Counted from the stretch's first letter, positions 6,805 through 27,091 are shown. The stretch: DNA of 33,371 bases from Pedobacter sp. (GCA_031179845.1 JAPSHM010000007.1:1-33371), one strand, 5' to 3'. Notes: generated by a model from the sequence alone, not told the origin. Translations and numbers: made by a program.

Positions 6805-7707
6805 TCAGTTTATTTTAAATTCTTCCAAAACTGGTGTTGGATTCCAGCCAAACATGTTTACAGCTTTTTGATCATCAAATGTAAGGTCTTCTGTAATTTT
6901 TGTGAGTTTGGCTGAATTAATCGGTGCATAGCAACCGAGAAAATCTCCAATTTTTGCTATAATTCGTGCAATCCAAGTCGGGATATTTAACGGTTTCGAC
7001 TTACCCAATTGACTAGCAATAACTAGAGACAGCTCAGAAAAATTAGGATGTTTTCGGTCAGTTAAATTGTAAATGCCACCTATCATTGCCACTTTAGGTA
7101 TAATTGCAGCAACATCCTTTGCAAGAACAATGCTTTTGCGTGCCTTACCACCGGCAATATCAAAATAATAACCATTGTAAATTCCTTTGATCATAGCACC
7201 AAGGTTGCCTGGAGGATTTATCCCGGCGATAAGTGGTAGCCGTAGAATTGTACCTAAAACATTGTGCTTAGTACACCAGCTTATAATCAAATCTTCGGCC
7301 TGCACCTTACTTAAACCATAAGGGTCTTTCGCAAGTAGATCATATTCCTCAGTGATCATGTTTCCAGTCTCTCTTCCATAGACAGCTACGGAACTGATGA
7401 AAATGAAGCTCTTGGGTAATGTTCCGGATTGTTCAATTCCTTTCAATAAGTTTTCTGTTCCTTTTACATTTATGTCGAAGAATGATTGATTCTCTTTAGT
7501 ATTTCTTGGAACCATATGTGCTTTACCAGCACAATGTATCACCAGATCCACCTCCGGTTTTATAATGGGTATACCAGTAGACAAATCGGCGACCAAATCA
7601 TTGGATTGTTGTCGTCCAAGACTCATGACAATAAAGGATGAAAGATTTTCTAATATTGATCTTCCTAAAAACCCCGTACTTCCCGTTAAAAGAATAGATT
7701 TAATCAT
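6805..7707 (-). CDS. NAD-dependent epimerase/dehydratase (WbpV/WbpK-like 4-keto reductase or epimerase)
   Basis: MIKSILLTGSTGFLGRSILENL Rossmann motif; SSVAVYG..., DPYGLSKVQAE active-site YxxxK; next to WbpL-like gene. Confidence 0.85.
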   Translation of the reverse strand: MIKSILLTGSTGFLGRSILENLSSFIVMSLGRQQSNDLVADLSTGIPIIKPEVDLVIHCAGKAHMVPRNTKENQSFFDINVKGTENLLKGIEQSGTLPKSFIFISSVAVYGRETGNMITEEYDLLAKDPYGLSKVQAEDLIISWCTKHNVLGTILRLPLIAGINPPGNLGAMIKGIYNGYYFDIAGGKARKSIVLAKDVAAIIPKVAMIGGIYNLTDRKHPNFSELSLVIASQLGKSKPLNIPTWIARIIAKIGDFLGCYAPINSAKLTKITEDLTFDDQKAVNMFGWNPTPVLEEFKIN

Positions 7708-8932
7708 TCATCAAGTTTTTGAATCTGTCCAAAATTTTATCCTTTGCATAGCGGGTCATAACAAGCTCGCGCCCTTTTGCACCTTTCCGCTCTGCCTCAA
7801 TAAGCACCTTTGAATCCAATCTATTAAAGAAATCGACAAGTGAATCTACTTCCCATTCATCAAAAGTGTAACCGCAATCGTGAGTCCTAACCATTTTGGA
7901 TATTTCCGTTTGTTTATTCCCTATAAAGAGAATTGGTTTTGACGCAGCTAAAATATTATAAGATTTAGATGGCACGCCTAAGCCATATAAATCTGGTGCT
8001 AACGTAACTAATCCGAAATGGCAGGCATTGAGAAAAACGTTTTGATCATCTCGACACATTGCCCCAGCAAATGTCACATTTGTTAACTGCTGGTTAGTAA
8101 CTTCGGCACGCAAAGTAGTTAAAAGAGCACCATCTCCAATAAACAAAAAATGTACCAATGGATTGTCAATTTTCTTTATAATTTGTAATAACCTTTCCAG
8201 TCCTTGCATCCTACCTAAATTCCCAGCGAAACAAAAGACAATTTTATCATCCAAGCCGTATCTGATTATCAATTCATTTTCTTTGAAATGAGTAGGCGCA
8301 ATTGCATCAACGTTAGCCCAGTTTTCAATAACTTTAATTGGAACTTTATCGTTGGTCTTAGCACTTAAAATCTCTAACATATCCGAACCCAAAACGATTA
8401 AAGTCGACGCCTGACGATAACTCCAGTCAAAAATCTGTTTTATGAAACGATAACCAAGGTTTTTATTTGATCTGATAATCTTTGCAGGAATAAGATTCTC
8501 GGGAAAAACATCGTGAACCAAAATCAATAACCTATTACCTTTTATCCAAGTAATTATGGAATAGAACGGTATTACAAATGCCGGATTTGTCACTATGAAC
8601 ACCGTATCGTTCTTTCCAACCCAAATTAACCCTCTAAAAAACATCCCCAAACTTAGAATAAAAAGTCTAACAATGCGTGTTATAAGGTGGTTCTTATTCA
8701 GATTTAAAGTGCCTATCCGGTGGATTTTAAAATGAAAGTCTAATGTTGCATTCCCGTCATTCAATTTATCGTAACCTGCAGGTCCACATATTACATGTAC
8801 CTCATGATCTTGAGCCAGTGCCTCCGCGATGTTGGTCATAATATACCCCGTAGACGCCTGATCAGGATAGAACAACTCAGATACGATCCATACCTTCGTC
8901 CTTTTCAGATTATTCACTAGTATTCGCTCCAA
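7700..8932 (-). CDS. WbuB-like glycosyltransferase (GT4), candidate L-FucNAc transferase
   Basis: KVWIVSELFYPDQASTGYIMTNIAEAL N-terminus; FAGNLGRMQGLERLL and GLGVPSKSYNILAASKPIL GT4 motifs; directly downstream of the FnlABC-like genes. Confidence 0.82.
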   Translation of the reverse strand: MERILVNNLKRTKVWIVSELFYPDQASTGYIMTNIAEALAQDHEVHVICGPAGYDKLNDGNATLDFHFKIHRIGTLNLNKNHLITRIVRLFILSLGMFFRGLIWVGKNDTVFIVTNPAFVIPFYSIITWIKGNRLLILVHDVFPENLIPAKIIRSNKNLGYRFIKQIFDWSYRQASTLIVLGSDMLEILSAKTNDKVPIKVIENWANVDAIAPTHFKENELIIRYGLDDKIVFCFAGNLGRMQGLERLLQIIKKIDNPLVHFLFIGDGALLTTLRAEVTNQQLTNVTFAGAMCRDDQNVFLNACHFGLVTLAPDLYGLGVPSKSYNILAASKPILFIGNKQTEISKMVRTHDCGYTFDEWEVDSLVDFFNRLDSKVLIEAERKGAKGRELVMTRYAKDKILDRFKNLMND

Positions 8933-10056
8933 ACCACTCTTTTAATGTAATCAACATAGCTTATGATAATACGAACCACCTTATCGGAAACATTTGGCAT
9001 TGAGTAATCAGCCACTCTCCTAAAATTTCGATCCGCTCCCCGTTTTTGGTAAGACAATTGCGTCAAACCCTGCAAAATTCGCTGCGGATTCATTCCTACC
9101 ATCATTACTGACGCTTCTTCCATGGCTTCCGGACGTTCATGGGCATCCCGCAAATTAAGTGCAGGAAAGTTCAATGTTGAAGATTCTTCAGATATTGTAC
9201 CGCTATCAGACAATACGGCATAGGATCTCATTTGTAAAGCGTTGTAATCATTAAAGCCCATCGGTTTAAGGAATTGAACTTCGGGCCTCATCGCTATCTT
9301 TTTAGACTCAATCATATTCCTCGTTCGGGGATGGGTACTTACGATAATCGGATACTTGTATCTCTCAGCGATTAAGTTTAAAGCATCCATTAAACTGGTA
9401 AAATTCTTCTCACTGCTTATATTTTCTTCCCGATGCGAAGATACCACAAAGTACTTCTGATCTTCCAGATCCAATCGACTTAAGATATTAGAACTTTCAA
9501 TCTGAGGCATATAATGATTTAAGACCTCAAACATAGGAGATCCAGTTTTGATAATTCTATCCGGCGGCAATCCCTCACGCAAAAGGTACTCCCGGGCAAT
9601 AGAGCTGTAAGTAAGGTTCACATCAGAAATATGGTCTACAATCTTTCGATTTGTTTCTTCAGGTACCCGCTGATCAAAACAACGATTACCAGCCTCCATG
9701 TGGAAGATCGGGATATGTCGTTTTTTTGCTGGAATTGCACACAGGCAGGAATTTGTATCGCCCAAGATCAAAAAGGCATCTGGCTGCTCGGACTCCAATA
9801 ACGGGTCAATTTTGATCAGGATTTGGCCTACAGTTTCCGTCGCAGTTTTGCCCGCAGCATTTAAAAAAAAGTCAGGTTTGCGAATCGCAAGATCATCAAA
9901 AAAGATCTGATTCAGCTCATAATCGTAATTTTGACCAGTGTGAACGACAACATGTTCAATCGCTTCTGAAGCGTCTAAAGCCGCCATTACCCTTGCTAAT
10001 CTGATAATCTCGGGGCGGGTACCAACAACCGTCATCACTTTTAACTTCTCTTTCAT
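8917..10056 (-). CDS. Non-hydrolysing UDP-GlcNAc 2-epimerase family (FnlC/WbjD/CapG-like)
   Basis: KVMTVVGTRPEIIRLARVMAAL, HTGQNYDYELNQIFFDDL, HMEAGNRCFDQRVPEETNRKIVDH, LSDSGTISEES. Confidence 0.9.
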   Translation of the reverse strand: MKEKLKVMTVVGTRPEIIRLARVMAALDASEAIEHVVVHTGQNYDYELNQIFFDDLAIRKPDFFLNAAGKTATETVGQILIKIDPLLESEQPDAFLILGDTNSCLCAIPAKKRHIPIFHMEAGNRCFDQRVPEETNRKIVDHISDVNLTYSSIAREYLLREGLPPDRIIKTGSPMFEVLNHYMPQIESSNILSRLDLEDQKYFVVSSHREENISSEKNFTSLMDALNLIAERYKYPIIVSTHPRTRNMIESKKIAMRPEVQFLKPMGFNDYNALQMRSYAVLSDSGTISEESSTLNFPALNLRDAHERPEAMEEASVMMVGMNPQRILQGLTQLSYQKRGADRNFRRVADYSMPNVSDKVVRIIISYVDYIKRVVWSEY

Positions 10057-10069
10057 TGATAATTTCTAT

Positions 10070-11191
10070 CTAAACTTCTTCAAAATAAGTGTCAGGATCC
10101 CTCGCATCATAAAACTCGTTGATCCAAAAATTGGTGTATAATTCTTCGTCACCGATATTTTTAATATTATGTGTATACCAAATGGGCATATCGACATAAG
10201 AAGGCTCATCACCATCGAGGTGAAAGTTCAAAACTTCTTCAGTTCCAATTCTCCTCAATTGAATTAATGCTTTACCTTTAATTACAGCGAATCTTTCAAT
10301 TTTTCTTGTATGATAATGATTTCCCCTGGTCACTCCCGGCACTGTTGTAGAAAAAGAAACTTGTCCGCCAACATTCAGGCGTATGATTTCAACAAATGCT
10401 CCCCTGGAATCCATATGCTGTACAAATTTAATAGGATTATGCGATTTGATGTCAATATAGCTTCTGAAAGTATTAAATAAACTAACCTCAAATTGCGTAC
10501 CTAATTCAGGAATTATACCTGATTCAAAATATTGTTCTTTAAACCGTTCTAGTGAGGTTAAAATTTCTGAAACATTATCAACAGAGGTATGGGGAATCAA
10601 AAATAACGGGTTACCTGATTTACTCCTAATTACATCTAATATTACTTTTACTAGTTCATTTATATAAATCAGCCTAACTTCACCATCAACATCAATAGTT
10701 GGTTGTTCATTGTGTGTAAGCTGATGTGAAAAAGTAGCGATAAAAGAATTATAGTACGGACGTCCAAAAGGACCGAATACATTAGGAATTACCAAACCCG
10801 TAAAAGTACCCTTTGCAGCTAACGCCCACTTGGCAAGCAACTCCCTCCCTTCTTTTTTGCTCTTACCATACAGATTGTTCCTTTCCTCCTGTGATGAAGA
10901 AGAAAAAATTACGTGAGCTTTACTTCCAGTTCTCTCAAGTGCATTAATCAGTTGCTTTACCAATCCAATATTTGTCTGGTAAAGTACCTCAGGATTATCA
11001 TGCCTGTTCATTGCTGCTAGGTGAACAATTACGTCACACTGGCTCACAAAAGATTCCAATTTTTGCTCGTCTTTGAAACTATCAATGTGATATGGAACCC
11101 TTTCAAACTCATTAGGAAATAGGGCAACTGTATTGAACAAATGTTGTCCAACAAATCCTTTTTGACCTGTAATACCTACTTTAATTTTCAT
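10070..11191 (-). CDS. CapF/FnlB/WbjC-like bifunctional NAD-binding + cupin enzyme
   Basis: N-terminal VGITGQKGFVGQHLF; C-terminal cupin DSRGAFVEIIRL...GVTRGNHYHTRKIERFAVIKGKALIQLR...DMPIWYTHNIKNIG. Confidence 0.92.
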   Translation of the reverse strand: MKIKVGITGQKGFVGQHLFNTVALFPNEFERVPYHIDSFKDEQKLESFVSQCDVIVHLAAMNRHDNPEVLYQTNIGLVKQLINALERTGSKAHVIFSSSSQEERNNLYGKSKKEGRELLAKWALAAKGTFTGLVIPNVFGPFGRPYYNSFIATFSHQLTHNEQPTIDVDGEVRLIYINELVKVILDVIRSKSGNPLFLIPHTSVDNVSEILTSLERFKEQYFESGIIPELGTQFEVSLFNTFRSYIDIKSHNPIKFVQHMDSRGAFVEIIRLNVGGQVSFSTTVPGVTRGNHYHTRKIERFAVIKGKALIQLRRIGTEEVLNFHLDGDEPSYVDMPIWYTHNIKNIGDEELYTNFWINEFYDARDPDTYFEEV

Positions 11192-11201
11192 CTAATAATT
11201 T

Positions 11202-11627
11202 TTACGCTATGAAATAATCTACAGGAAACAAATAATCATCATTCTTGGCATGTTCAATAGGATAGTCTCCAAACACAACCAATTCAGAATTAGCTGATAT
11301 TGCTCTTAAACTGGTAGCAAAACCTGCGGGTACATGTAAAATAGAATCTTCTTCCGCATTCATTATTATTTTTGTGGGTTTTAAAAGTGCATCAGGTGCT
11401 TCCCAATTGTCGATTTCTATGAGATTAATTTCAAATGCACCTTTACAAACATGAAACCAACGTTGTTCTATCCTGTGTCCTCGCCAACCTCTAGTGATTG
11501 AAGAATCATGATGTAAAACCCGATAAAAACGCTTTACCTGAGTCATGTCAAAGTCATTGAAATAAAAAATAGTCCCACGTTTATCACTATGATGCCCACC
11601 GCCTATTATTTGATATTCATTTTTCAT
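11202..11627 (-). CDS. WxcM/FdtA-like cupin (putative sugar isomerase/epimerase)
   Basis: 141 aa, SDKRGTIFYFNDFDMTQVKRFYRVLHHDSSITRGWRGHRIEQRWFHVCKGAFEINLIEID; RmlC-like cupin pattern. Confidence 0.75.
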   Translation of the reverse strand: MKNEYQIIGGGHHSDKRGTIFYFNDFDMTQVKRFYRVLHHDSSITRGWRGHRIEQRWFHVCKGAFEINLIEIDNWEAPDALLKPTKIIMNAEEDSILHVPAGFATSLRAISANSELVVFGDYPIEHAKNDDYLFPVDYFIA

Positions 11628-12661
11628 TAACCGACGTACTGCACACCAGACATATCTCCAAATACTTCCTCCTTAATTAAGGGTAGATCAGCCAATAGCT
11701 TTTTCATTCCGTCTACACCTTGCTGCTTAGTATTATGTGAATGATAATCTTCAATTGTAGAAATGTCAACCTCTCCTTCCGAAAAATACTGAGCATAATT
11801 TAAATCACGATTATCTGCAGGGATACGGTAAAATTCACCCATATCTTCTGCTTTAACCATTTCTTCACGTGTACATAAAGTTTCATAAAGTTTTTCTCCA
11901 TGCCTAGTTCCGATAATTTTAATTTCATTTTCAGCTTTGCAAAGTTCTTTCAAAGCTTGAGCTAAATCACCGATAGTTCCAGCAGGTGCCTTATTTACAA
12001 ATAAATCGCCAGGCTTCGCATGCTCAAAAGCGAATAATACTAAATCGACGGCATCTTCCAACGACATCAAAAAACGCGTCATGTTTGGATCAGTGATCGT
12101 TAAGGGTTGTCCAGATTGGATTTGTTTTAAAAACAGTGGAATTACAGACCCTCTGGAGGCCATCACATTACCGTACCGTGTCAAGCATACTGTAGTACTT
12201 TTAGAATCTCTTGATGCCGCAATAGCTACTTTTTCCATCAATGCCTTAGAAATTCCCATTGCATTGATTGGGTAAGCAGCCTTATCTGTACTTAAACAGA
12301 TCACTTTTTCAACTTGGTTTGAAATAGCAGCTGAAATTACGTTCTGAGTTCCAAATACATTTGTTTTGGTAGCTTCAATTGGAAAGAACTCGCAAGAAGG
12401 AACTTGTTTTAAAGCTGCGGCATGAAATACATAATCAACACCATGCATTGCTCTCTCTACACTGTGAATATCTCTTACATCACCGATATAAAATTTAAGC
12501 TTATCATTTTTCAGCAAATTACGCATGTCATCCTGCTTCTTTTCATCACGAGAAAAAATACGGATTTCATTGAAGTGATCCGTATGAAGAAACCTATTTA
12601 ATACTGCATTACCAAAGGAGCCTGTGCCCCCAGTGATCAATAATATTTTGTCTTTAAACAT
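11627..12661 (-). CDS. FnlA/WbjB/CapE-like UDP-GlcNAc 4,6-dehydratase/5-epimerase
   Basis: MFKDKILLITGGTGSFGNAVLNRFL, STDKAAYPINAMGISKALMEK, CLTRYGNVMASRGSVIPLF; adjacent to CapF and FnlC. Confidence 0.92.
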   Translation of the reverse strand: MFKDKILLITGGTGSFGNAVLNRFLHTDHFNEIRIFSRDEKKQDDMRNLLKNDKLKFYIGDVRDIHSVERAMHGVDYVFHAAALKQVPSCEFFPIEATKTNVFGTQNVISAAISNQVEKVICLSTDKAAYPINAMGISKALMEKVAIAASRDSKSTTVCLTRYGNVMASRGSVIPLFLKQIQSGQPLTITDPNMTRFLMSLEDAVDLVLFAFEHAKPGDLFVNKAPAGTIGDLAQALKELCKAENEIKIIGTRHGEKLYETLCTREEMVKAEDMGEFYRIPADNRDLNYAQYFSEGEVDISTIEDYHSHNTKQQGVDGMKKLLADLPLIKEEVFGDMSGVQYVG

Positions 12662-12662
12662 C

Positions 12663-12887
12663 TTAAATTATTTTAAAGCTTTGTTTGTAATCAAACCTTT
12701 TTCCGCAATGTAAGCAGGATGTGGCCTGTCCAACCCGGACACTAATTCCAATTAAACAATTCAAAAGGAGGCCAGTTAAATAATAATTCCAATAATCACA
12801 CCCCTTTTTCATCAAATACGATGCTGGAATCCGTCTCCATCGTACAGTACCTACGGACGGTATGTTCTGTTTGTTCCAAAACGTCAC
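12663..12887 (-). CDS. Small hypothetical ORF (74 aa, or 49 aa from internal Met) with a CxxC pair; may be spurious or derived from an inserted element
   Basis: ORF in the 256-nt gap between the GT and FnlA-like genes; ends ...VRVGQATSCLHCGKRFDYKQSFKII. Confidence 0.25.
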   Translation of the reverse strand: MTFWNKQNIPSVGTVRWRRIPASYLMKKGCDYWNYYLTGLLLNCLIGISVRVGQATSCLHCGKRFDYKQSFKII

Positions 12888-12894
12888 AAATATA
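12887..12894 (-). promoter_or_regulatory. Candidate -7 box TATATTTG upstream of the FnlA-like gene
   Basis: Perfect TAnnTTTG in the intergenic gap; no convincing -33 at 19-21 nt. Confidence 0.3.
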
Positions 12895-12917
12895 ATGAAT
12901 ATAATAATAAACAGTAG

Positions 12918-14135
12918 TCAGCAAATATTCAATAGGGTTTTATAAAGATTAATATACTCGTTAAATTTTTTGTTTCTATCGTACAACTCTTCCGCTTTTC
13001 TTCTACAGTTTTCAGAATAGACTGCTTTGCCTTTATCTTTAATAATGACTACTTTTCGACACAATGCACCAACGTCAGTCTTTGGCACAACAAAACCTGT
13101 ATCGTCACACACCGATTCAACACTACCACCAGTTTCAAAAGTAATAACGGGAGTACCACAAGCTAGTGCCTCAAGATTCGTAGTAGGAAAAGTGTCTTCC
13201 AGAGTAGGATTTACAAAGACATCCGCCGCTGAATAAAGATTTGCTAATTCTGCAAGATTTTCGGTTCTCAAAATACCTACCATCGAAGATGGCAAGGCGT
13301 TTCTTTGTTTTTGCGATATCCCAACTAAAACTATAATAGCATCTGAAGGTAACATATCATTTAATTCGATGAAATATTTTAGTCCCTTACGTCCATTCCA
13401 ATTACTTGCTACCCCCAGTATCATAAATGGTTTTGTAATATTGTACTTACTTCTGGTTTTGTAACTAAGAACATTAGGCTTGAATACATCTATATCAATA
13501 CCATTTTGTATAACTCGGATAGGATAGTCTTTTAAAAATGATTCTTTAACAAGGTTTCCTAACCAGTATGACACAGGGACGATCGTCAAGTTTTCTACAC
13601 CGTTAAAAATCTCTTTCTTTCTATTGTAATTAAAACTACTTTTATCAAAAAATAAGGCTTTCGGATATTCGTGTAATTGCGGGCAATTGTAACATTCAGT
13701 TTTCCACTTTTCGCAGTTTACAAATTCAAAATGCGCACAGCGTCCGGTAAATGGCCAACAATCATGCAAGGTCCAAATCACGGGTCTCTTCCTAGTCTTT
13801 AGATATTTAAATAAAATATCAATATTGATATAATATCCGTGTAAATTATGTAAATGTATTATATCAGGATTGATCTTCGTAATATGATCGATTAATTTTT
13901 TGGTAGCATTTTTTGAGGAAAAAGAATGATTATCGAATAATCTAGTTTGCAAAACATGTTTATAAATATCTAGTTTAGTACCTATTTTTATTACAGTAGA
14001 CTTGCTTGGCAAATTATTTCTTGCATATACAATAAAACTTAGCCCATTGTTGTCAATTACTTTTTCGCCAATGTGCCCTGCGATCCTACCAACAGAACCA
14101 GTATTTATTCGGGAGCTTATTTGTAAAATTTTCAT
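12918..14135 (-). CDS. GT4-type glycosyltransferase
   Basis: MKILQISSRINTGSVGRIAGHIG..., WTLHDCWPFTGRCAHFEFVNCEKWKTECYNCPQL, VFVNPTLEDTFPTTNLEALACGTPVITFETGG. Confidence 0.88.
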   Translation of the reverse strand: MKILQISSRINTGSVGRIAGHIGEKVIDNNGLSFIVYARNNLPSKSTVIKIGTKLDIYKHVLQTRLFDNHSFSSKNATKKLIDHITKINPDIIHLHNLHGYYINIDILFKYLKTRKRPVIWTLHDCWPFTGRCAHFEFVNCEKWKTECYNCPQLHEYPKALFFDKSSFNYNRKKEIFNGVENLTIVPVSYWLGNLVKESFLKDYPIRVIQNGIDIDVFKPNVLSYKTRSKYNITKPFMILGVASNWNGRKGLKYFIELNDMLPSDAIIVLVGISQKQRNALPSSMVGILRTENLAELANLYSAADVFVNPTLEDTFPTTNLEALACGTPVITFETGGSVESVCDDTGFVVPKTDVGALCRKVVIIKDKGKAVYSENCRRKAEELYDRNKKFNEYINLYKTLLNIC

Positions 14136-18163: not shown

Positions 18164-18868
18164 CTACAAAATTTCATTGTTTTTTATATACCCTTCTTTT
18201 ATAATTGTCTCACAAAGAGCCCAATCAAGTTCAGTGTCAATATCAATTGAGTAAAGGTCGTCTAGAGTATACTTCTTAATTTTTTCAAAATTATATAGTG
18301 GCCTTTCTTTTAAAGCCATTACGTTTATCAGATACATTGAACCATTGTAAAAGAAAACAGGAGGTGCTTCTTGCCTATTTTTAAACAATCCCTTTTTTGA
18401 TTTCTCAAGAAACCCAAATTCATTTTCTTCGAAAAGATTAAAATATGGATTTTGGTGAGATTTTCCAACAGACACGACCATATCTAGATCTGCAGAATAA
18501 AGATTGAAAATATCACTAATATGCTTTTGGGTTCTAAAGGGAGAGGTAGGTTGAAGTAGTAAAATATTATCATAAGTCTTATTTAAATCTTCGAAATATT
18601 TCAGTGCATGTAAAATGACATCGTACGTTCCCGCGGTATCTGTAGACAACGCGGCCGGCCTTTTAAATGGTACACTTAATCCATATCTTTCTACCACCGC
18701 TGTAATTTCATCACAATCGGTTGAGACACAAATATCTTCATCGTTGGCAAAGTTCCTTGCAATATCGATACTATATAAAATCAATGGTTTACCGTTCAAA
18801 GATCTTATATTTTTCTTTGGAATTCCCTTTGATCCGCCCCTTGCTGGAATGATAAATAGAGTTTTCAT
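18164..18868 (-). CDS. CMP-nonulosonate cytidylyltransferase (NeuA/LegF-like)
   Basis: MKTLFIIPARGGSKGIPKKNIRSLNGKPLILYSI, LLLQPTSPFR, DIDTELDW. Confidence 0.92.
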   Translation of the reverse strand: MKTLFIIPARGGSKGIPKKNIRSLNGKPLILYSIDIARNFANDEDICVSTDCDEITAVVERYGLSVPFKRPAALSTDTAGTYDVILHALKYFEDLNKTYDNILLLQPTSPFRTQKHISDIFNLYSADLDMVVSVGKSHQNPYFNLFEENEFGFLEKSKKGLFKNRQEAPPVFFYNGSMYLINVMALKERPLYNFEKIKKYTLDDLYSIDIDTELDWALCETIIKEGYIKNNEIL

Positions 18869-18871
18869 AAA

Positions 18872-19921
18872 CTAAAGATTAATATGTTTGATATCTTCTT
18901 GTGCTTTCTTAAAATCTTCGTGCTTGCCAATATCCAACCAATAACCCGTTATTGGATAAGTTATTAATTTTTTCTTTTGGGCGAGAAGTTCTGTCATAAG
19001 ATCGGTTATATCAAAAAACTTATCAGCTGGAATCATGTTTAATACGCTCTTTTTTAAAAGATAAATTCCAGCATTAGAAAAATAGGTGTATGTCGGTTTC
19101 TCCTTTAGAGACTTAACATCATTTTCATCATTCACTTCTAATACGCCATAAGGCACTTCAACATTGTAGGATGTCGCAGCAACCGCCATGTCGGCATCTG
19201 AATTCTTAAATGTAAGGAAAAAGTCCGCATAATCGATATCTGTTAATAAATCACTGTTCATAATCAAAATATCGTCATGCTCAAACTTTTCAATAAGTAA
19301 AATAGAGCCAATTGTCCCTAATGGTTTGGTTTCACGCACATAATTTATTTGTGCATTATTCTTTTCCCCATCACCAAAGTAATCAACCAATTGATCCCCT
19401 AAATAATTGATGCTTATATGAAGCCTTTTTACTCCATACGTAACTAATCGGTCAATATTATGCTCTATAATTGGTTTATTTCCAACTTTTAACAATGGCT
19501 TGGGGGTGTCTGCAGTCAGAGGCATTAATCTGGTGCCCTTTCCTCCAGCCATTAATACACCATCAGCAGGTATAATGGTCCTTTGAATTCTAAAGTTTAA
19601 AATATCAACGATAACTCTATCTTCATCAACAATAGGAATAATCCTTAAGTTTTTGCTTTTATAAACCTTAAGCTCTTCCAAACTATAACCAGCACGATTA
19701 ATGAAAACCGGGTTATCTTGAATGAATTTTGACAATGGATCGTCAAAACCAAGGTCTCTTATAAATCCACGTCGTAAATCTCCATCTGTCAAAGAACCGA
19801 TTAAACGCTTCTTATCATCTGCTACAAACAAAATAGCATCTGATGCTAATTTATCCAATTTTTTTAAGGCTTCACGAACTGTTTCCGCCTGAAATATTAT
19901 ATGTCTGTCTATCGTAGTCAT
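18872..19921 (-). CDS. CBS-pair + NTP-transferase sugar nucleotidyltransferase (PtmE-like)
   Basis: N-terminal CBS region (VADDKKRLIGSLTDGDLRRGF) followed by DGVLMAGGKGTRLMPLTADTPKPLLKVGNKPIIEHNI. Confidence 0.88.
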   Translation of the reverse strand: MTTIDRHIIFQAETVREALKKLDKLASDAILFVADDKKRLIGSLTDGDLRRGFIRDLGFDDPLSKFIQDNPVFINRAGYSLEELKVYKSKNLRIIPIVDEDRVIVDILNFRIQRTIIPADGVLMAGGKGTRLMPLTADTPKPLLKVGNKPIIEHNIDRLVTYGVKRLHISINYLGDQLVDYFGDGEKNNAQINYVRETKPLGTIGSILLIEKFEHDDILIMNSDLLTDIDYADFFLTFKNSDADMAVAATSYNVEVPYGVLEVNDENDVKSLKEKPTYTYFSNAGIYLLKKSVLNMIPADKFFDITDLMTELLAQKKKLITYPITGYWLDIGKHEDFKKAQEDIKHINL

Positions 19922-21087
19922 ACTTGAGTATCGAAAAATGATTTGGCTTGGAATGACTTGAAATTCAATTCTTTAAAAACCTTTACAATTTGCTCAGAAG
20001 CGCTTCCATCTCCGAAAAGACTTTCATTAGTAGGTAATTCGTTTAGAAATCTAACATCTTTTACCAAAGAAAAAACCTTGTTTATTGAATCGATCGTTGG
20101 CTGACAATTAACAATTGTAGACGCCTGTATTCGACCTTTTTGACGGTTCCCAATATTGATCGTTGGTACTTTAAAATAAGGTGCCTCGACAATTCCACTG
20201 GAACTATTCCCTACAACAGCTGTAACATATTGCATAGTTGACAAGTATAGTAGTTGTCCCATTGAAGTAAACGACATCGCTTTCTGAGAGTTTCTCTCAA
20301 CATACCGATCAATTATCTCATTGATAATCCGGCCATCTGTATCAGCATTTGCTTTTGTAAAAATAAACAGACTATCCTCCTGCTCATCAATAACACTTAA
20401 AAGATTTTCCAATTGAACCTGCGCAGGTACTGTATCTAATGTCGGAGGATGAAATGTAACTAAGTAATTATATTTTTTTAAAGCCACTCCGATTTTAGTC
20501 TCCAAATCTTTGCGACTTAACAAATTCAGTAAGCGAACATTATCCAAGCCGATTGCGCCAACAGTAAATACGGTTGATGGATTTTCTCCGAGCTGTATAA
20601 TTCGTTTTCGATAAACCTCCGTCGCAGCAAAATGTAAATGGCTCATTTTAGTTATGGAATGGCGAATTGCATCGTCATAAGCACCCTCAGTTACTTCTCC
20701 CCCATGCACGTGGGCGATCGGTATTTTTAATATCAGTGCTGAAGAAGCTAAAGCTAACATTTCATATCTATCTCCTAAAATAACTAGCAAATCGGGTAGC
20801 AAATTCGTCAAAGCATCTGCAAACCCAATCATTCCTAATCCCATAGATTTGACTATGCTTCCAGAAGAATCTGAAGAAAGTAACATTTCAACTTTTGCGT
20901 CAATACTTATTCCATCTTTCACAATTTCTTGGAAGGTCAATCCAAATTCAGGTGAAAGATGTGCGCCTGTAACCAAAACCTGCAATTGCCATCTTTCTTC
21001 TTGACTAATTTTATCAATTAGTGGTTTCAATAATCCATATTCCGCCCGGGTACCAGTTGCTACACATATTTTCATTTCACAGTTCAA
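19918..21087 (-). CDS. Hydrolysing sugar-nucleotide 2-epimerase (NeuC/LegG-like)
   Basis: KICVATGTRAEYGLLKPLI, LGDRYEMLALASSALILKIPIAHVHGGEVTEGAYDDAIRHSITKMSHLHF, VVGNSSSGIVEAP; likely start at internal Met5 (21075). Confidence 0.92.
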   Translation of the reverse strand: MNCEMKICVATGTRAEYGLLKPLIDKISQEERWQLQVLVTGAHLSPEFGLTFQEIVKDGISIDAKVEMLLSSDSSGSIVKSMGLGMIGFADALTNLLPDLLVILGDRYEMLALASSALILKIPIAHVHGGEVTEGAYDDAIRHSITKMSHLHFAATEVYRKRIIQLGENPSTVFTVGAIGLDNVRLLNLLSRKDLETKIGVALKKYNYLVTFHPPTLDTVPAQVQLENLLSVIDEQEDSLFIFTKANADTDGRIINEIIDRYVERNSQKAMSFTSMGQLLYLSTMQYVTAVVGNSSSGIVEAPYFKVPTINIGNRQKGRIQASTIVNCQPTIDSINKVFSLVKDVRFLNELPTNESLFGDGSASEQIVKVFKELNFKSFQAKSFFDTQV

Positions 21088-22087
21088 TTAAGTCATCTTC
21101 AAAGAAATCTTGCTTAGACTTTTGCCCTATAACAGAATCCCATTTCATAGGGGAAATGCCCGTACCCGGTCTTTTAACGGCAATATTATCGTCAGTAAAT
21201 ATTTCGCCCATTTTTATCAATTTTTTCGCAACAATGCTTTTCCTCGCAATCAACAGGTTTTTCATTTCAGATGGAGAAGGCTCCTTTGAACCTGAACCCG
21301 ACAATGCCTTTTCAATATTCTTGATAGCAGATACCATAGCTTTTAATTCGTGCGGCTCAAGGGAAGCTTTATGATCTGGTCCTGGCAAACTCTTATCAAG
21401 GGTAAAATGCTTCTCTATAATCGAAGCTCCCATTGCAACTGCAGCTATGGGAACCTCAATGCCTAACGTATGATCGGAGTAACCTACCGCTATATCAAAT
21501 TGCTTCCCTATATGTAACATCGCCTTTAAATTTACATCAACCATTGGCGTAGGGTACTCGGTATTGCAGTGAAGAATAGTAATATTTTCTTTACCTATAC
21601 CCCCTGCAAGAAAAATATCCAAAGCCGCGTTAATCTCTTGGATTGTAGACATTCCTGTGGAAAGAATTACCTCTGAAAACAACGATGCGGCTTTTCGTAA
21701 ATATGGCAAATTGGTGATTTCTCCGGAAGGTATTTTAACTAACGTCAAACCGATATCCGCCAGAAAGTGAAGTGAGTCCAGATCAAATGCAGTGGAAAAA
21801 AAATTTATATTTTTTTTTCGACAATACGCTATTAACTTTTCATGATCTGCCTCTGATAGTTCCAATTTTTTAACCATATCAAATTGAGATTCATTAGCCA
21901 TTTTTGTATTTTCAATTTGGTATTCGGCTTTCTTAGCATTTTTTGTGATACTCAGTTCCGTCTTAAACGTTTGAAATTTCACATAGTCAACACCTGCATC
22001 AACAGCCACATCAATTAAACGAAATGCATTCTCCAAGCTCCCATTATGATTTACACCAGCCTCTGCTATTATAATTGTATTACTCAT
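21077..22087 (-). CDS. Nonulosonate synthase (NeuB/LegI-like)
   Basis: IIAEAGVNHNGSLENAFRLIDVAVDAGVDYVKFQTFK, HCNTEYPTPMVDVNLKAM, GYSDHTLGIEVPIAAVAMGASIIEKHFTLDKSLPGPDHKASL and C-terminal SAF-type region. Confidence 0.94.
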   Translation of the reverse strand: MSNTIIIAEAGVNHNGSLENAFRLIDVAVDAGVDYVKFQTFKTELSITKNAKKAEYQIENTKMANESQFDMVKKLELSEADHEKLIAYCRKKNINFFSTAFDLDSLHFLADIGLTLVKIPSGEITNLPYLRKAASLFSEVILSTGMSTIQEINAALDIFLAGGIGKENITILHCNTEYPTPMVDVNLKAMLHIGKQFDIAVGYSDHTLGIEVPIAAVAMGASIIEKHFTLDKSLPGPDHKASLEPHELKAMVSAIKNIEKALSGSGSKEPSPSEMKNLLIARKSIVAKKLIKMGEIFTDDNIAVKRPGTGISPMKWDSVIGQKSKQDFFEDDLIEL

Positions 22088-22114: not shown

Positions 22115-22744
22115 TTAATTATCGGACATCTTCTTTGCTGGCACGCCAACTACAGTAACAGAATTAGGTACATTTTTTAGAACTAAAGATGACGCACCTA
22201 TAATTGAATCACTTCCTATTGTCTTGTATTGCAAAATAGTTGACCCAACCCCTATGAGATTCCTGTCTCCGATACTTACACCCCCCGAGATGTTGACAGA
22301 TGGATTTATTACGTTACAATTCCCTATAACCACATCGTGTCCAACCGTAGTTAGCAGATTGAAAACGTTGAAATTACCTATTTTTATGTCTATTGTCAAA
22401 GTGACATTAGAGGTGAAGATATTTCCCTTACCCAGTATTATGTTATCGAAATCACCGGTTACATTTGGATGAATCAAATTCGGAAAATCAAACTCTTTGA
22501 ACTTCAATGAAAATTCATGTATCAACTTTGGATTCCCCACTCCAATAGCCAAGTAAACGTTCTGGCTATCTAGTTTAAAAAAGTCTATTTCTTCAATGAC
22601 TGGAATCACCTCGGTTTTGAAAATTAATCCATCCGCTTTTTCATGATTAATAAATCCCTTGACACGATAGCCACCAATAAGTTTAATTAATGCATATACT
22701 TCTTTTGCAAAACCACCACAGCCTATTATATAAATATCTTTCAT
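22115..22744 (-). CDS. NeuD/PglD/LegH-like hexapeptide acyltransferase
   Basis: MKDIYIIGCGGFAKEVYALI, VGHDVVIGNCNVINPSVNISGGVSIGDRNLIGVGSTI; internal Met11 start (22744) avoids overlap with the upstream gene; track ORF is 22115-22774. Confidence 0.85.
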   Translation of the reverse strand: MKDIYIIGCGGFAKEVYALIKLIGGYRVKGFINHEKADGLIFKTEVIPVIEEIDFFKLDSQNVYLAIGVGNPKLIHEFSLKFKEFDFPNLIHPNVTGDFDNIILGKGNIFTSNVTLTIDIKIGNFNVFNLLTTVGHDVVIGNCNVINPSVNISGGVSIGDRNLIGVGSTILQYKTIGSDSIIGASSLVLKNVPNSVTVVGVPAKKMSDN

Positions 22745-22748
22745 AACA

Positions 22749-23486
22749 TTATTGAATTGAGTATCCGCCATCAACTGTCAAACTTTGGCCTGTTATCCAT
22801 CGGCTTTGATTGGAAAGCAAAAATGTGATGACAGGTGTAATATCACCTACTTCGCCGATCCCAAGTGGGTGCATATCTTTAATTCGACTAATATTTTCCT
22901 CGGATAACTCACTAAAAAGCTTTTCAGTTAAAGGTGTGGTTACAATGCCAGGTAAAACTGCATTTACCCTTATTTTTCTTTTCGCTAATTCGATAGCCGA
23001 TGCCTTTACCATGCCTAATATGGCGGCCTTGGTTGAACAATATCCAACCTTTCCACTTTGCCCTAGAGCCCCCATTACCGACGACAAGAAAATAAAGCTT
23101 GCGCCGTCATTACTGTTTTTTTTCTTTGAAACAATTCTCAATAATTCAATCGCAGCAAAAACGTTTATCTCGTAAATCCTTCTGACCTTATCAACCTTAT
23201 ACATTGATAGCGGAATTGTTTCTTCAATGCCGGCACAATGTACAAATCCATCAATTTTTCCGTGAGCACTTATAAAGTTATTAATTAACTCTTCGATACC
23301 TCCTAAATCCGACAAATCAAAAGATTCAAAAAAAAATTGCTTATTACTTTCCAAATTTATCTGCCTTTGTAATTTTGAAATGTCCCTTCCGATTCCCAAA
23401 ATTGTACAATCTTTTTCAAGTAGTGCTGTGGAAAGCCCCAATCCGATCCCCGAAGTCACTCCGGTAACAATGATATTTCCCCCCAT
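22749..23486 (-). CDS. Short-chain dehydrogenase/reductase (FabG/PtmA-like)
   Basis: NIIVTGVTSGIGLGLS cofactor motif; SSVMGALGQSGKVGYCSTKAAILGMVKASAIELA catalytic S-YxxxK; VNAVLPGIVTTPL. Confidence 0.9.
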   Translation of the reverse strand: MGGNIIVTGVTSGIGLGLSTALLEKDCTILGIGRDISKLQRQINLESNKQFFFESFDLSDLGGIEELINNFISAHGKIDGFVHCAGIEETIPLSMYKVDKVRRIYEINVFAAIELLRIVSKKKNSNDGASFIFLSSVMGALGQSGKVGYCSTKAAILGMVKASAIELAKRKIRVNAVLPGIVTTPLTEKLFSELSEENISRIKDMHPLGIGEVGDITPVITFLLSNQSRWITGQSLTVDGGYSIQ

Positions 23487-23488
23487 TA

Positions 23489-23725
23489 TTATTCTTGTTC
23501 AAATCTCTCGGGTCCAATTTTAGTTATTAAACTTTCAATTGTAGTAATTTCGTGTATGTCACTTCCTGTTAAAGAAACACCAAAATATTCAGAGACGTAA
23601 CTTATTAATACCATAGCTTGCAAAGAATCCCATTCATCCAAATCTTTTATATTTGTATTCGCAGTCAATCTACTTTCAATTTCCAATTCTTCAGCCAAGC
23701 CATGAATAAAATCTGATATTTTCAT
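23489..23725 (-). CDS. Acyl carrier protein
   Basis: 78 aa; DEWDSLQAMVLISYVSEYFGVSL with phosphopantetheine-type DSL motif (Ser34). Confidence 0.88.
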   Translation of the reverse strand: MKISDFIHGLAEELEIESRLTANTNIKDLDEWDSLQAMVLISYVSEYFGVSLTGSDIHEITTIESLITKIGPERFEQE

Positions 23726-23737
23726 TTTTATAGTTTT

Positions 23738-24745
23738 TTATAGTCCTTTATTTAAAAATATACTTCCACCACACCAAGACAGTCCAACACCAAAACCAAC
23801 TACGATGATTTCTTCTGTTTTTTGAAAATCATGGCTATTTGAATAATTTTTTAAAGCAATGGGTATTGTACATGAGACCGTGTTTCCTCCATCCTCTAAA
23901 TCAATAAAAAAATTGTCCCTGGAGACTTTTAGCTTTTTCCTCAAAAATTCCAGCATAAAGGCATTTGCTTGATGAAAAATAAATTGGTCAATCTGGTTAA
24001 TCTCGACCTGGTTCTTAATCAAGATTTGTCGAGTAAAATTTGGTATGACTTCTCCCGTAAAATTAAATATTTCAGGTCCGTTCATATATAGCGTGTTATC
24101 GGTATAAACGTTATCAGTACCGTAAATAAACTCTTTTGCATCCGAGTCAAATTGATATTTCGACGCACCATTTTTTATAATTAGATTGTCATGTCCCGAT
24201 CCATCTGTTCCAAATAAAAAGTCGCCAATTTTTCGAGATTTTGAACATGAAATCAATGATGCTGTAGCTCCGTCGCCAAAAATAGCACGATTCGATCTAT
24301 CTTTTGGATGAAGAAATCGTGAATAGGTCTCTGCGGTTATAAGAAGTACATTTTTTGCCTGATTACTTGCGATTAATGATTTACTCAAACTTAACCCATA
24401 GGTATATCCAGAACAACCTAGATTAAAATCAATGGCACCAATATTCTTGTTTAAGCCTAATTTATTTTGCAATATACAGGCTGTGGTGGGCAGTATATAT
24501 TCAGGGCTTTGAGTACAATACAGTATGTAATCTATGCTACTTTTATCAATTCGTTTGAACAACTTATCGCAAGCCTTAATTGCCAGATCCAACGCAGTTT
24601 CGCCATCTACAATATATCGCTTCTTTATCCCTACTTTTTTTTCAAAATTATGAAAGTCATAATCAGGAAATTCTAGGCTGAGTTCCTCATTTGTTAAGCA
24701 TTTTTCAGGTAAAAAATATTCTATTGCTACTAATTCTGCTTCCAT
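23738..24745 (-). CDS. 3-oxoacyl-ACP synthase III (KASIII/FabH-like)
   Basis: Intact Cys-His-Asn triad by motif: NLGCSGYTYGL (C111), FHQANAFML (H258), DGGNTVSCTIPIAL (N288). Confidence 0.92.
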   Translation of the reverse strand: MEAELVAIEYFLPEKCLTNEELSLEFPDYDFHNFEKKVGIKKRYIVDGETALDLAIKACDKLFKRIDKSSIDYILYCTQSPEYILPTTACILQNKLGLNKNIGAIDFNLGCSGYTYGLSLSKSLIASNQAKNVLLITAETYSRFLHPKDRSNRAIFGDGATASLISCSKSRKIGDFLFGTDGSGHDNLIIKNGASKYQFDSDAKEFIYGTDNVYTDNTLYMNGPEIFNFTGEVIPNFTRQILIKNQVEINQIDQFIFHQANAFMLEFLRKKLKVSRDNFFIDLEDGGNTVSCTIPIALKNYSNSHDFQKTEEIIVVGFGVGLSWCGGSIFLNKGL

Positions 24746-24749
24746 TTTA

Positions 24750-25904
24750 TTATAATCTTACTCCACTAGGAATATTGACAATTCTCTCCGATATCCAAAT
24801 GCTATTAGTTAAATCACCAGTTTGGCAATTTTGAAACATTTTTAATCTACTCATCAGTTCCCATATAGGCCTTGTCATTACACCGTTAGAATTGGAAAAG
24901 GTTAAGAAAGCATTACGTTCGTCAAGATCGTTGAATAGTATTGCATTAAGCCAATAATTAGCTTTCGCATCATCAATTTCTTCAACAAATTTAATCTCGG
25001 TTTCTTTAAAGAAGTCTCGATAATCAGCTGCAAGTTCTCTTTTATTTTCTACAAATTTCTCTAACTGTTCTAACTGGGCACAAGCCAAGGCTGCATTCAA
25101 ATTGGGCATTCTATAATTATAACCGATTTCGTCATGCACAAATTCCCACTTATGAGGAACCTTCGCCTGCGTGGTTAAGTGCTTAGCCCTTTTGGCAATG
25201 ACTTCATCATTTGTAACTAATGCACCACCACCACCACAGGTAACTGTCTTATTCCCATTAAAACTGAAGATGCCAATGCTACCAAATACACCGGTATGTC
25301 TACCTTTATAATAACTACCCAATGACTCAGCAGCATCCTCTACCAGATAGATGTTCCATTCTTCGCAAATTGCAGCGATTTCATCAATGCGACAAGGTAA
25401 CCCAAATGTGTGCATAGGCACACATGCAGCTATTTTCCTCCCCGTACCTTTGTTATATGTTCCATCGTGTCTCCTTTCTGCATTTTGGTGTAAAAAATCT
25501 TTCAATGCGTCAGGCGACATTCCTAAAGTATCTTTATCCACATCTAGAAAGACAGGTTGTGCGCCAATGTAACTGATTGCATTCGCAGTGGCAATGAAAG
25601 TTAAAGCCTGAGACAGCACTTCATCTTCTCTCTGTACTCCGGCCAATATAAGTCCCATATGAAGTGCATTTGTTCCATTCACAATTGCAATTGCATATTT
25701 TGCACCGGTAATCCGCATCAACATTTCTTCAAAACGATTTACATACGCCCCAACGGAAGATACAAATGTTGAATCTATAGCATCTATCACATAAATACGT
25801 TCATTGCCGATAAATACAGGTTCATGTAACCCAACAAAGTCTTTACCCGGATATTTGGCTTTAATAAAATCTGTTGTCCCTTGAAATCTCTCCACTACTG
25901 TCAT
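24750..25904 (-). CDS. LegC-like DegT/DnrJ/EryC1 PLP aminotransferase
   Basis: GAYVNRFEEMLMRITGAKYAIAIVNGTNALHMGLILAGV, EDAAESLGSYYKGRHTGVFGSIGIFSFNGNKTVTCGGGGAL (PLP Lys). Confidence 0.92.
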   Translation of the reverse strand: MTVVERFQGTTDFIKAKYPGKDFVGLHEPVFIGNERIYVIDAIDSTFVSSVGAYVNRFEEMLMRITGAKYAIAIVNGTNALHMGLILAGVQREDEVLSQALTFIATANAISYIGAQPVFLDVDKDTLGMSPDALKDFLHQNAERRHDGTYNKGTGRKIAACVPMHTFGLPCRIDEIAAICEEWNIYLVEDAAESLGSYYKGRHTGVFGSIGIFSFNGNKTVTCGGGGALVTNDEVIAKRAKHLTTQAKVPHKWEFVHDEIGYNYRMPNLNAALACAQLEQLEKFVENKRELAADYRDFFKETEIKFVEEIDDAKANYWLNAILFNDLDERNAFLTFSNSNGVMTRPIWELMSRLKMFQNCQTGDLTNSIWISERIVNIPSGVRL

Positions 25905-27091
25905 TACATTTTTGCATCTAAATATTTACCTGTCTCTTTATAACCAAAATTAGGAATCATATAATGAAACAATTTTACTATATCCTCTTTCGACCAGGCC
26001 TTATCTCTTTTCAATTTTGCGATAGAGTCACTGAAATAGTTTAATTTCTCCTGATCGAAACCGGATTCATTCTTCACTACACCCAAATTTTCAAAACGGT
26101 TCATGTCGAGCGTTTCATTTTCGGTAAAAAATTCTTCAAAGTCTTTTTCTCCGGTAGTATCACTCGAGGTGAATAAACATGGCCATTTTTTTAGCTCCGG
26201 TAATGTTCCTGCCAGTTCTCGCGCTTCATTTTCGGTTTTACACAAATAGGGTTCATAGCCTAATCCATTCAAATATTTCCCAGCGATGTCAGCGAAAGTA
26301 ATAAGGTGCAAATGCTCACTTAACTTTGGAAAAAAAATGTCCCGGTTTTCTCCAAACATACAGGACATCAAGCAAAGTTCCCCGGATTCTTTAGGTATTA
26401 CAAAATATCTTTTGATGTCATTTGGAGCAACGATTGGCTGACGCTTTTGTATGCGTTGGTTGAAACCATGTAGCAATGATCCATCGGAAAAAGCCACATT
26501 GGCGAAACGCGCAGTAGAAATATTGATTTCTTCACTTTTACGCATCAAAAACATTTCCATAATACGCTTAGAAGCTCCCATCATATTTACTGGATTTGCG
26601 GCTTTATCAGTAGAAACACAAAAATACTTTTTCACGCCTTTCGCAATAGATTGGTTAACCGTTTTAACCGTATTAAAAATATTTACGTCAATCATCCGCA
26701 TCAAAGTAAACGGATCTTTTTCGCTGCGAACGTGCTTTAACGCAGAAAGGTTAAGTACATAATCATATTCCCCATCTGCGTCAATAAAAGCATCATATTC
26801 TATCGAGCCAATATCCAAAGCAAATGTTTGGAAGTCGCCTTCTATATAACCATAAGAACTTCTTATATCTCTCACCAGCTCAACCATATTATTTTCACTG
26901 ATATCAACAACATGAAGTTTCTTAGGATCTCTTTTAAAGATCTCTTTTGTAACGGCCTGGCCAATTGACCCTGCACCTCCAATAACCAAGAACCTTGACT
27001 TTGAAACTTGATTTGTTAATGCCTCTTCATTTTGACATATATCATTCTGAAATAGCTCTTCCGTCCGTCCAATTAAACTTAGTGTTATCAT
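25904..27091 (-). CDS. LegB-like nucleotide-sugar 4,6-dehydratase
   Basis: RFLVIGGAGSIGQAVTKEIF, STDKAANPVNMMGASKRIMEMFL, TARFANVAFSDGSLLHGFNQRI; directly upstream of LegC-like gene. Confidence 0.9.
   Translation of the reverse strand: MITLSLIGRTEELFQNDICQNEEALTNQVSKSRFLVIGGAGSIGQAVTKEIFKRDPKKLHVVDISENNMVELVRDIRSSYGYIEGDFQTFALDIGSIEYDAFIDADGEYDYVLNLSALKHVRSEKDPFTLMRMIDVNIFNTVKTVNQSIAKGVKKYFCVSTDKAANPVNMMGASKRIMEMFLMRKSEEINISTARFANVAFSDGSLLHGFNQRIQKRQPIVAPNDIKRYFVIPKESGELCLMSCMFGENRDIFFPKLSEHLHLITFADIAGKYLNGLGYEPYLCKTENEARELAGTLPELKKWPCLFTSSDTTGEKDFEEFFTENETLDMNRFENLGVVKNESGFDQEKLNYFSDSIAKLKRDKAWSKEDIVKLFHYMIPNFGYKETGKYLDAKM

Follow-up and report, generated by a model that had tools for sequence, protein, structure and literature searches.

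A ketoacyl synthase cassette takes the place of legH in a predicted legionaminic-acid operon of Pedobacter sp. and probably supplies an N-acyl group made on a carrier protein

In Pseudomonas syringae, the vioA-vioS-acp-vioR-vioB island underlies viosamine carrying an N-3-hydroxybutanoyl group, and deletion of vioR or vioB abolishes the modified sugar (PMC3927599). The wfpCDEFG genes of Flavobacterium psychrophilum, which include two ketoacyl-acyl carrier protein synthases (KAS), are predicted to make the 3,5-dihydroxyhexanoyl group found on Qui2NAc4N in the O-polysaccharide, and their authors proposed acyl transfer from a dedicated acyl carrier protein (ACP) (PMC6519341). In Acinetobacter baumannii, the legionaminic acid (Leg) derivative Leg5Ac7-[(R)-3-hydroxybutanoyl] is made by lgaABCHIFG, a module that differs from the diacetyl module in its acyltransferase and synthetase genes (PMC9676051). 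Here we compare with these systems a 33,371-nucleotide stretch of Pedobacter sp. DNA (the window), which is a whole contig (JAPSHM010000007.1) of a 75%-complete, 3.9-Mb assembly (GCA_031179845.1). Between legC and legI, all on the minus strand, it holds genes for a KASIII, an ACP, a short-chain dehydrogenase/reductase (SDR) and a NeuD/PglD-type acyltransferase. A sequence-only reading of the region had described these four genes, at 22115-24745, as co-oriented and closely spaced, and the open reading frames (ORFs) bear this out, with gaps of a few nucleotides.

Like the window, the P. syringae island sets a 4-aminotransferase gene next to single genes for a KASIII, an ACP, a 3-oxoacyl-ACP reductase and a VioB/PglD-type acyltransferase. 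Unlike the window, its acceptor is dTDP-viosamine for a flagellin glycan, nonulosonate genes are absent and the gene order is different. The wfp set shares with the window a KAS, an ACP, a reductase and a PglD homologue beside pglE/pglF, as well as its origin in the Bacteroidota, and its order wfpC-G matches that of the loci L050-L052, L054 and L055 described below; it differs in having two KAS, in placing 3,5-dihydroxyhexanoyl on UDP-Qui2NAc4N and in the absence of Leg genes. For the wfp and vioS sets the likeness rests on gene order, protein family and the vioA cluster of Burkholderia glumae, not on their protein sequences. The A. baumannii product is the same as the one predicted for the window. 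ACP and 3-oxoacyl-ACP reductase genes are also found, as in the window, in nonulosonate/flagellin islands of Aeromonas group II (PMC7874193) and of enterobacteria (PMC4875605), but there an AMP-dependent synthetase, LuxE and LuxC stand in place of KASIII, and the role is unproved. The cassette is of a kind already known, its logic having been published for viosamine and Qui2NAc4N, and the product sugar is known too. What looks new is a KASIII-ACP-SDR-acyltransferase cassette inside a legionaminic-acid operon, of which our search of the open-access literature (subscription literature lay outside it) found no account.

Homologues of LegB, LegC, the acyltransferase, LegG, LegI and LegF are all present in the window, and judged by its genes the set is a legionaminic-acid biosynthesis operon with a correspondingly predicted product. 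The flanking genes that the sequence-only reading had called LegC-like and LegI-like were upheld by their profile matches (Table 1). Syntenic Leg operons are present in three Pedobacter genomes (genome/locus G045/L171, G059/L172 and G046/L173), where LegB, LegC and LegI resemble those of the window to the extent given in Table 1, LegG is 49-61% identical, PtmE 60-65% and Wzz 56-66%. In all three the legC-legI slot holds a single gene, legH, with no KAS, ACP or SDR. The LegH proteins of L171 and L173 are like the window acyltransferase in occupying this slot and in belonging to the PglD_N plus hexapeptide family; unlike it, they are encoded by a lone gene, fall in another clade and carry a Glu-His...His pattern as in PglD 3bss. 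The window acyltransferase is only 24-31% identical to the syntenic Pedobacter LegH proteins. Since LegH of L171, of L173 and of a relative in G217 are 55-62% identical among themselves, this low value does not merely reflect fast evolution of legH. Given the conserved flanks, the divergent acyltransferase and the extra genes, the simplest reading of the sequences is that legH was exchanged for the four-gene KAS-ACP-SDR-acyltransferase block. In L172 (8858-9502) legH lies in two frames, possibly through a frameshift or a sequencing error.

The acyltransferase belongs to the NeuD/PglD/VioB family, with PglD_N and Hexapep domains, a catalytic histidine and a TIGR03570 score just over the cut-off of 160.8 (Table 1). 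Its longest ORF (22115-22774, from TTG 22774) overlaps the SDR gene by 26 nt; the ATG at 22744, 4 nt past the SDR stop, is the more likely start. We placed the protein in a tree of 48 rows that included 24 KAS-linked acyltransferases and 17 LegH proteins from Leg loci. The window ACYLTRANSFERASE falls among the 24 KAS-linked enzymes, split from the 17 LegH proteins with a Shimodaira-Hasegawa-like approximate likelihood ratio (SH-aLRT) support of 99. The KAS-linked and LegH labels could be explained by 6 changes along the tree; shuffled labels needed 19.5 on average. Its closest relative is a sister in genome G135 (48% identity). The next-best matches are KAS-linked enzymes (33-39%), except for L190 and L192, which are without KAS, and all of these outscore other LegH proteins. 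We therefore rejected the idea that the window protein is an ordinary LegH, from its position in the tree and its low identity to the syntenic LegH proteins.

The catalytic residues claimed for the other three proteins were confirmed: C111/H258/N288 in KASIII, which are invariant in an alignment with 8 relatives, Ser34 of a DSL motif in ACP, and the S-YxxxK signature in the SDR (Y149/K153 with Ser135/136). The window KAS shares 58-68% identity with its relatives in 4-aminosugar loci of other genomes, as compared with 28% and 36% with the two other KASIII of its own genome (contigs C136 and C353). With two further KASIII in the genome, and with Pedobacter FabH forming a clade apart, we rejected the possibility that it is the main, housekeeping FabH. 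The closest relatives of the window ACP, at up to 60-64% identity, are carrier proteins from KAS cassettes, and it is distinct from eight further PP-binding matches in the genome, one of which, an 84-codon frame, fits a free ACP. Every one of the 13 SDRs found to be closest to that of the window (48-62% identity) belongs to a KAS-ACP locus, and most of these loci have no Leg genes; the best NCBIfam subfamily match is a glucose-1-dehydrogenase-like group, below cut-off. All three proteins resemble those of KAS-ACP-SDR-PglD-PglE loci that have no Leg genes. The window combines a KASIII with its C-H-N triad, the ACP serine, the SDR YxxxK and a PglD-like acyltransferase adjoining a 4-aminotransferase, which is the make-up of a sugar N-acyl cassette. 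Chance or misreading was rejected as an explanation, as ORFs, profile matches and residues hold and the KAS, ACP and SDR genes occur together in 81 of 95 related loci (loci that were gathered by KAS similarity).

These results lead us to consider it probable that the four genes form an acyl-supply-and-transfer cassette in the place of legH, giving a 3-hydroxybutanoyl group on N-7 of Leg from an ACP-bound donor. KASIII would join malonyl, carried by the dedicated ACP, to a short acyl-CoA (acetyl-CoA being the likeliest), and the SDR would reduce the resulting acetoacetyl-ACP to 3-hydroxybutanoyl-ACP. The NeuD-like enzyme would then take 3-hydroxybutanoyl from ACP and attach it to the 4-amino group of the nucleoside diphosphate (NDP)-2-acetamido-4-amino-2,4,6-trideoxyglucose made by LegB and LegC, and LegG, LegI and LegF would convert the acylated sugar into CMP-Leg5Ac7-(3-hydroxybutanoyl). 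The 4-amino nitrogen of the LegC product ends as N-7 of legionaminic acid after these last three steps. In chemical terms, the 2-acetamido-4-amino-2,4,6-trideoxyglucose nucleotide that accepts the acyl group is the same sugar as in bacillosamine-type loci, so a cassette from such loci could serve in a Leg operon. The gene set, the catalytic residues, the replacement and the linkage of the acyltransferase to KAS-ACP-SDR are observed directly; beyond these we infer the starter, the chain length, the ACP-bound donor and the N-7 position. The dedicated hydroxyacyl supply for the 4-N-acyltransferase that the sequence-only reading had proposed is supported by the legH replacement, by the tree clade, by the 4-aminosugar loci without Leg genes in which the KAS-ACP-SDR set recurs, and by the P. 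syringae vio island. Its description as a mini fatty-acid module is right as to an acyl-making set but slightly too grand, for with one KAS and no dehydratase the set would yield one hydroxyacyl unit only.

If the cassette followed the same logic with a different acyl group, then KASIII might take a propionyl-, isobutyryl- or hydroxylated acyl-CoA/ACP starter, or act twice, and the product might be, for example, a 3-hydroxypentanoyl or 3,5-dihydroxyhexanoyl group. The position aligned with FabH Phe87, a starter gate, is Leu85 in 8/8 aligned clade members, as this explanation would allow. It also draws on the presence of window-KAS relatives in two-KAS loci arranged like the C6 dihydroxy set of F. 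psychrophilum (PMC6519341). However, the window is without the second, E-type KAS typical of C6 loci, and the single-KAS set of P. syringae serves a C4 hydroxyacyl sugar (PMC3927599); we regard a different acyl group as rather unlikely, and 3-hydroxybutanoyl, by analogy, as the most likely one. The acyltransferase might also use acetyl-CoA or a general CoA thioester while KAS, ACP and SDR worked for something else, for instance a lipid or an O-acyl group. The G135 sister enzyme works in a Leg locus without KAS or ACP, and an acyltransferase is near in only 33 of the 81 loci with the KAS-ACP-SDR set, as would be expected in that case. Yet the acyltransferase of the window changed along with KAS, ACP and SDR while all flanking genes stayed as they were, it groups with KAS-linked enzymes in the tree, and its gene overlaps or abuts that of the SDR, all of which makes a separate target improbable. 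The possibility raised in the sequence-only reading that the SDR is a PtmA-type sugar enzyme, with KAS and ACP incidental, could appeal to the promiscuity of the SDR superfamily and to the sub-threshold glucose-1-dehydrogenase-like match. It is disfavoured by the origin of the 13 closest SDRs (the PtmA sequence itself was outside this comparison) and by the absence of an SDR from the legC-legI slot of the syntenic Pedobacter operons; we judge it very unlikely. Least probable of all in our estimate is a decayed or silent remnant. The draft assembly is incomplete and the cassette is known here from sequence alone, but all ORFs are full length and in frame with intact motifs, and with the ancestral legH no longer in the slot, decay would strip the pathway of its acyltransferase.

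Several points count against the 3-hydroxybutanoyl cassette that we favour. The Leg operon that holds the G135 sister acyltransferase has no KAS, ACP or SDR near that gene, and the only KASIII match of the genome is distant and of the FabH-like, housekeeping type. An enzyme of this type can work without the cassette, either drawing on a general donor or transferring some other acyl group, and because of this an ACP-bound rather than CoA-bound donor for the window is likely rather than certain. The A. baumannii seven-gene lga module, which makes the same Leg derivative, was described without KAS, ACP or SDR and without a stated origin for its acyl donor (PMC9676051). The acyl length is assigned by analogy with P. 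syringae and F. psychrophilum, starter and stereochemistry are not readable from sequence, and the polysaccharide is predicted from the genes of an incomplete assembly. The active site is also less telling than it might appear. The residue preceding the catalytic histidine is Gly in the window protein and in 24/24 KAS-linked enzymes and Glu or Asp in 17/17 LegH proteins, and where 17/17 LegH proteins and PglD 3bss have a histidine at +9, the window protein has Val. The solved relatives VioB 7txp and 4m9c are also without the Glu and the His. Because these two break the rule, we dropped the Gly/Val residues as proof of acyl specificity and keep them as a clade mark that is not decisive for the acyl group.

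Co-occurrence of KASIII, ACP and SDR with Leg genes, which the sequence-only reading had marked as worth a search, was seen in a Treponema sp. locus (L127). Among 41 LegC loci examined, a KAS lies in the legC-legI slot in the window only. The KAS clade of the window occurs in 21/396 genomes of a phylum sample, and the LegC genomes G301 and G319 of this sample carry it at a distance from legC. Because the 95 related loci were gathered with a C-type KAS as query, the sample is biased. A PglD-like gene accompanies the KAS-ACP-SDR set in 33/81 of them, together with a DegT aminotransferase in 31/81. The KAS fall into two types, C-type and E-type, in separate clades. In Flavobacterium, Chryseobacterium and Lacinutrix (L050-L052, L054 and L055) the order is C-type KAS, ACP, E-type KAS, SDR, PglD, PglE, and KAS of L050, L052 and L055 are 67-68% identical to the window KAS. 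In the one-KAS version of Sphingobacterium and Olivibacter (L057, L060 and L065), which is carried by cultured relatives such as Sphingobacterium siyangense (L065) and Olivibacter (L060), a PglE-like aminotransferase lies downstream and a sugar transferase resembling PglC lies upstream (a Bac_transf match in L060, the locus tested). Single-KAS loci of the set, like the window, retain the C-type, as may be expected from a C-type query; the sole E-type-only locus seen was L046.

In the Treponema locus (7937-13667), ACP, E-type KAS, SDR, C-type KAS and acyltransferase are followed by LegC (527.9 bits) and LegB. From its genes this is a second legionaminic-type context for the cassette, in another phylum, and by analogy a C6 dihydroxyacyl group would be expected from its two KAS. 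A Porphyromonadaceae locus (L072, 4166-14150) has a MaoC-like dehydratase, KAS-ACP-SDR and an ATP-grasp protein beside PseI (523 bits), and the acyl group made there may have undergone dehydration or differ in some other way. On the B. glumae plasmid pBGF3 (L216), vioA is followed by KAS (43% identical to the window KAS), ACP, SDR and acyltransferase. An unannotated KAS-like sequence lies there in two frames between acp and the SDR gene (7042-8364), and the plasmid may hold a KAS-ACP-KAS-SDR-acyltransferase set that is interrupted or was mis-sequenced. A two-KAS cassette of genome G395 (L191) includes a phosphopantetheinyl transferase-like gene (7118-7777, minus strand; NCBIfam below cut-off, no Pfam match), fitting a dedicated holo-ACP. 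In L039-L045, C-type KAS, ACP, E-type KAS and SDR are followed mostly by a GT2-like and a GNAT-like protein (named by eye), without PglD, possibly the same acyl chemistry using a GNAT transferase. Many Chryseobacterium genomes (L080-L128) have the KAS-ACP-SDR trio without a nearby PglD-like acyltransferase, and two Olivibacter loci (L062 and L075) have a close KAS relative (446-449 bits) with neither ACP nor SDR nearby.

Besides NeuD-type LegH, the legC-legI slot in Bacteroidota holds formyltransferases (PF00551 in L138 and L153) and ATP-grasp ligases (PF15632 in L135 and L164); formyltransferase look-alikes, judged from the start of the sequence, lie in the slot of L143 and L149. This suggests that the slot is a general swap site for N-acyl chemistry, taking an acetyltransferase, a formyltransferase, an ATP-grasp ligase or an acyl-making cassette. 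Two of the Pedobacter Leg operons have further genes between legG and ptmE. In L171 (7354-8900) Pfam assigns them to a PIG-L de-N-acetylase and a formyltransferase, and L173 has their counterparts, which would fit an exchange of one N-acetyl for formyl.

Table 1. Genes of the predicted legionaminic-acid operon in the window, with domain calls from Pfam and NCBIfam profile searches of the window proteins.
Feature	Coordinates	Strand	Evidence
LegB-type NDP-sugar 4,6-dehydratase	25904..27091	-	PF02719; 81-83% identity to LegB of three Pedobacter Leg operons
LegC aminotransferase, predicted to give the 4-amino sugar for acylation	24750..25904	-	TIGR04181 551.6 bits (cut-off 420); 73-78% identity to other Pedobacter LegC
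KASIII, C-type, predicted first condensation (acetyl-CoA + malonyl-ACP)	23738..24745	-	PF08541/PF08545, ACP_syn_III; C111/H258/N288
Free-standing acyl carrier protein	23489..23725	-	PF00550 36.4 bits; Ser34 in DSL
SDR, predicted 3-oxoacyl-ACP reductase	22749..23486	-	PF13561/PF00106, adh_short_C2; Y149/K153; 50-62% identity to KAS-ACP cassette SDRs
NeuD/PglD-type acyltransferase	22115..22744	-	TIGR03570 163.6 bits; PF17836, PF00132; His146
LegI/NeuB nonulosonate synthase	21077..22087	-	TIGR03569 494 bits, over cut-off; 70-74% identity to Pedobacter LegI
LegG/NeuC-type hydrolysing 2-epimerase	19918..21087	-	TIGR03568 455.9 bits
PtmE-type CBS-domain sugar-1-phosphate nucleotidyltransferase	18872..19921	-	PF00483 + CBS; kept in syntenic loci
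LegF/PseF-type CMP-nonulosonate synthetase	18164..18868	-	PF02348; TIGR03584 below cut-off

From legB to legF, neighbouring genes are spaced between an 11-nt overlap and a 27-nt gap, and the PtmE-type nucleotidyltransferase suggests a GDP-sugar route. A search of the operon for terminator-like sites found none, and promoter-like matches were at chance level (30 seen, 26.5 expected). By base composition the cassette does not clearly stand out as foreign (GC 30-38%, against 33-38% in the flanks). Wza/Wzz-type genes lie upstream of the operon, and Wzx- and Wzy-like genes and L-FucNAc genes farther downstream; from these neighbours we take a Wzy-dependent surface polysaccharide to be the probable product. 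The L-FucNAc-type set (8917-12661) comprises a dehydratase, a reductase with a cupin tail and an epimerase, named by eye, and within it lies an FdtA-like protein of 141 aa (11202-11627).

Tentatively, and with somewhat less than even confidence, we propose that 4-amino sugars are served by a movable acyl cassette in which the KAS genes set the chain length, the C-type alone giving 3-hydroxybutanoyl and the C-type with the E-type giving 3,5-dihydroxyhexanoyl. Such a cassette would cross viosamine, bacillosamine-type sugars and nonulosonates (Pedobacter, Treponema and the PseI locus), and ACP-made N-acyl groups of legionaminic acid would become readable from genomes. In the Pedobacter operon a sugar acyltransferase is predicted to be fed by acyl-ACP outside lipid A synthesis. 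Nonulosonic acids display their N-acyl groups as epitopes, phages use these groups as receptors, and genomes now serve to predict them. If the chain-length reading is true, the acyl group that a strain displays could be deduced from whether it has KAS genes and of which type.

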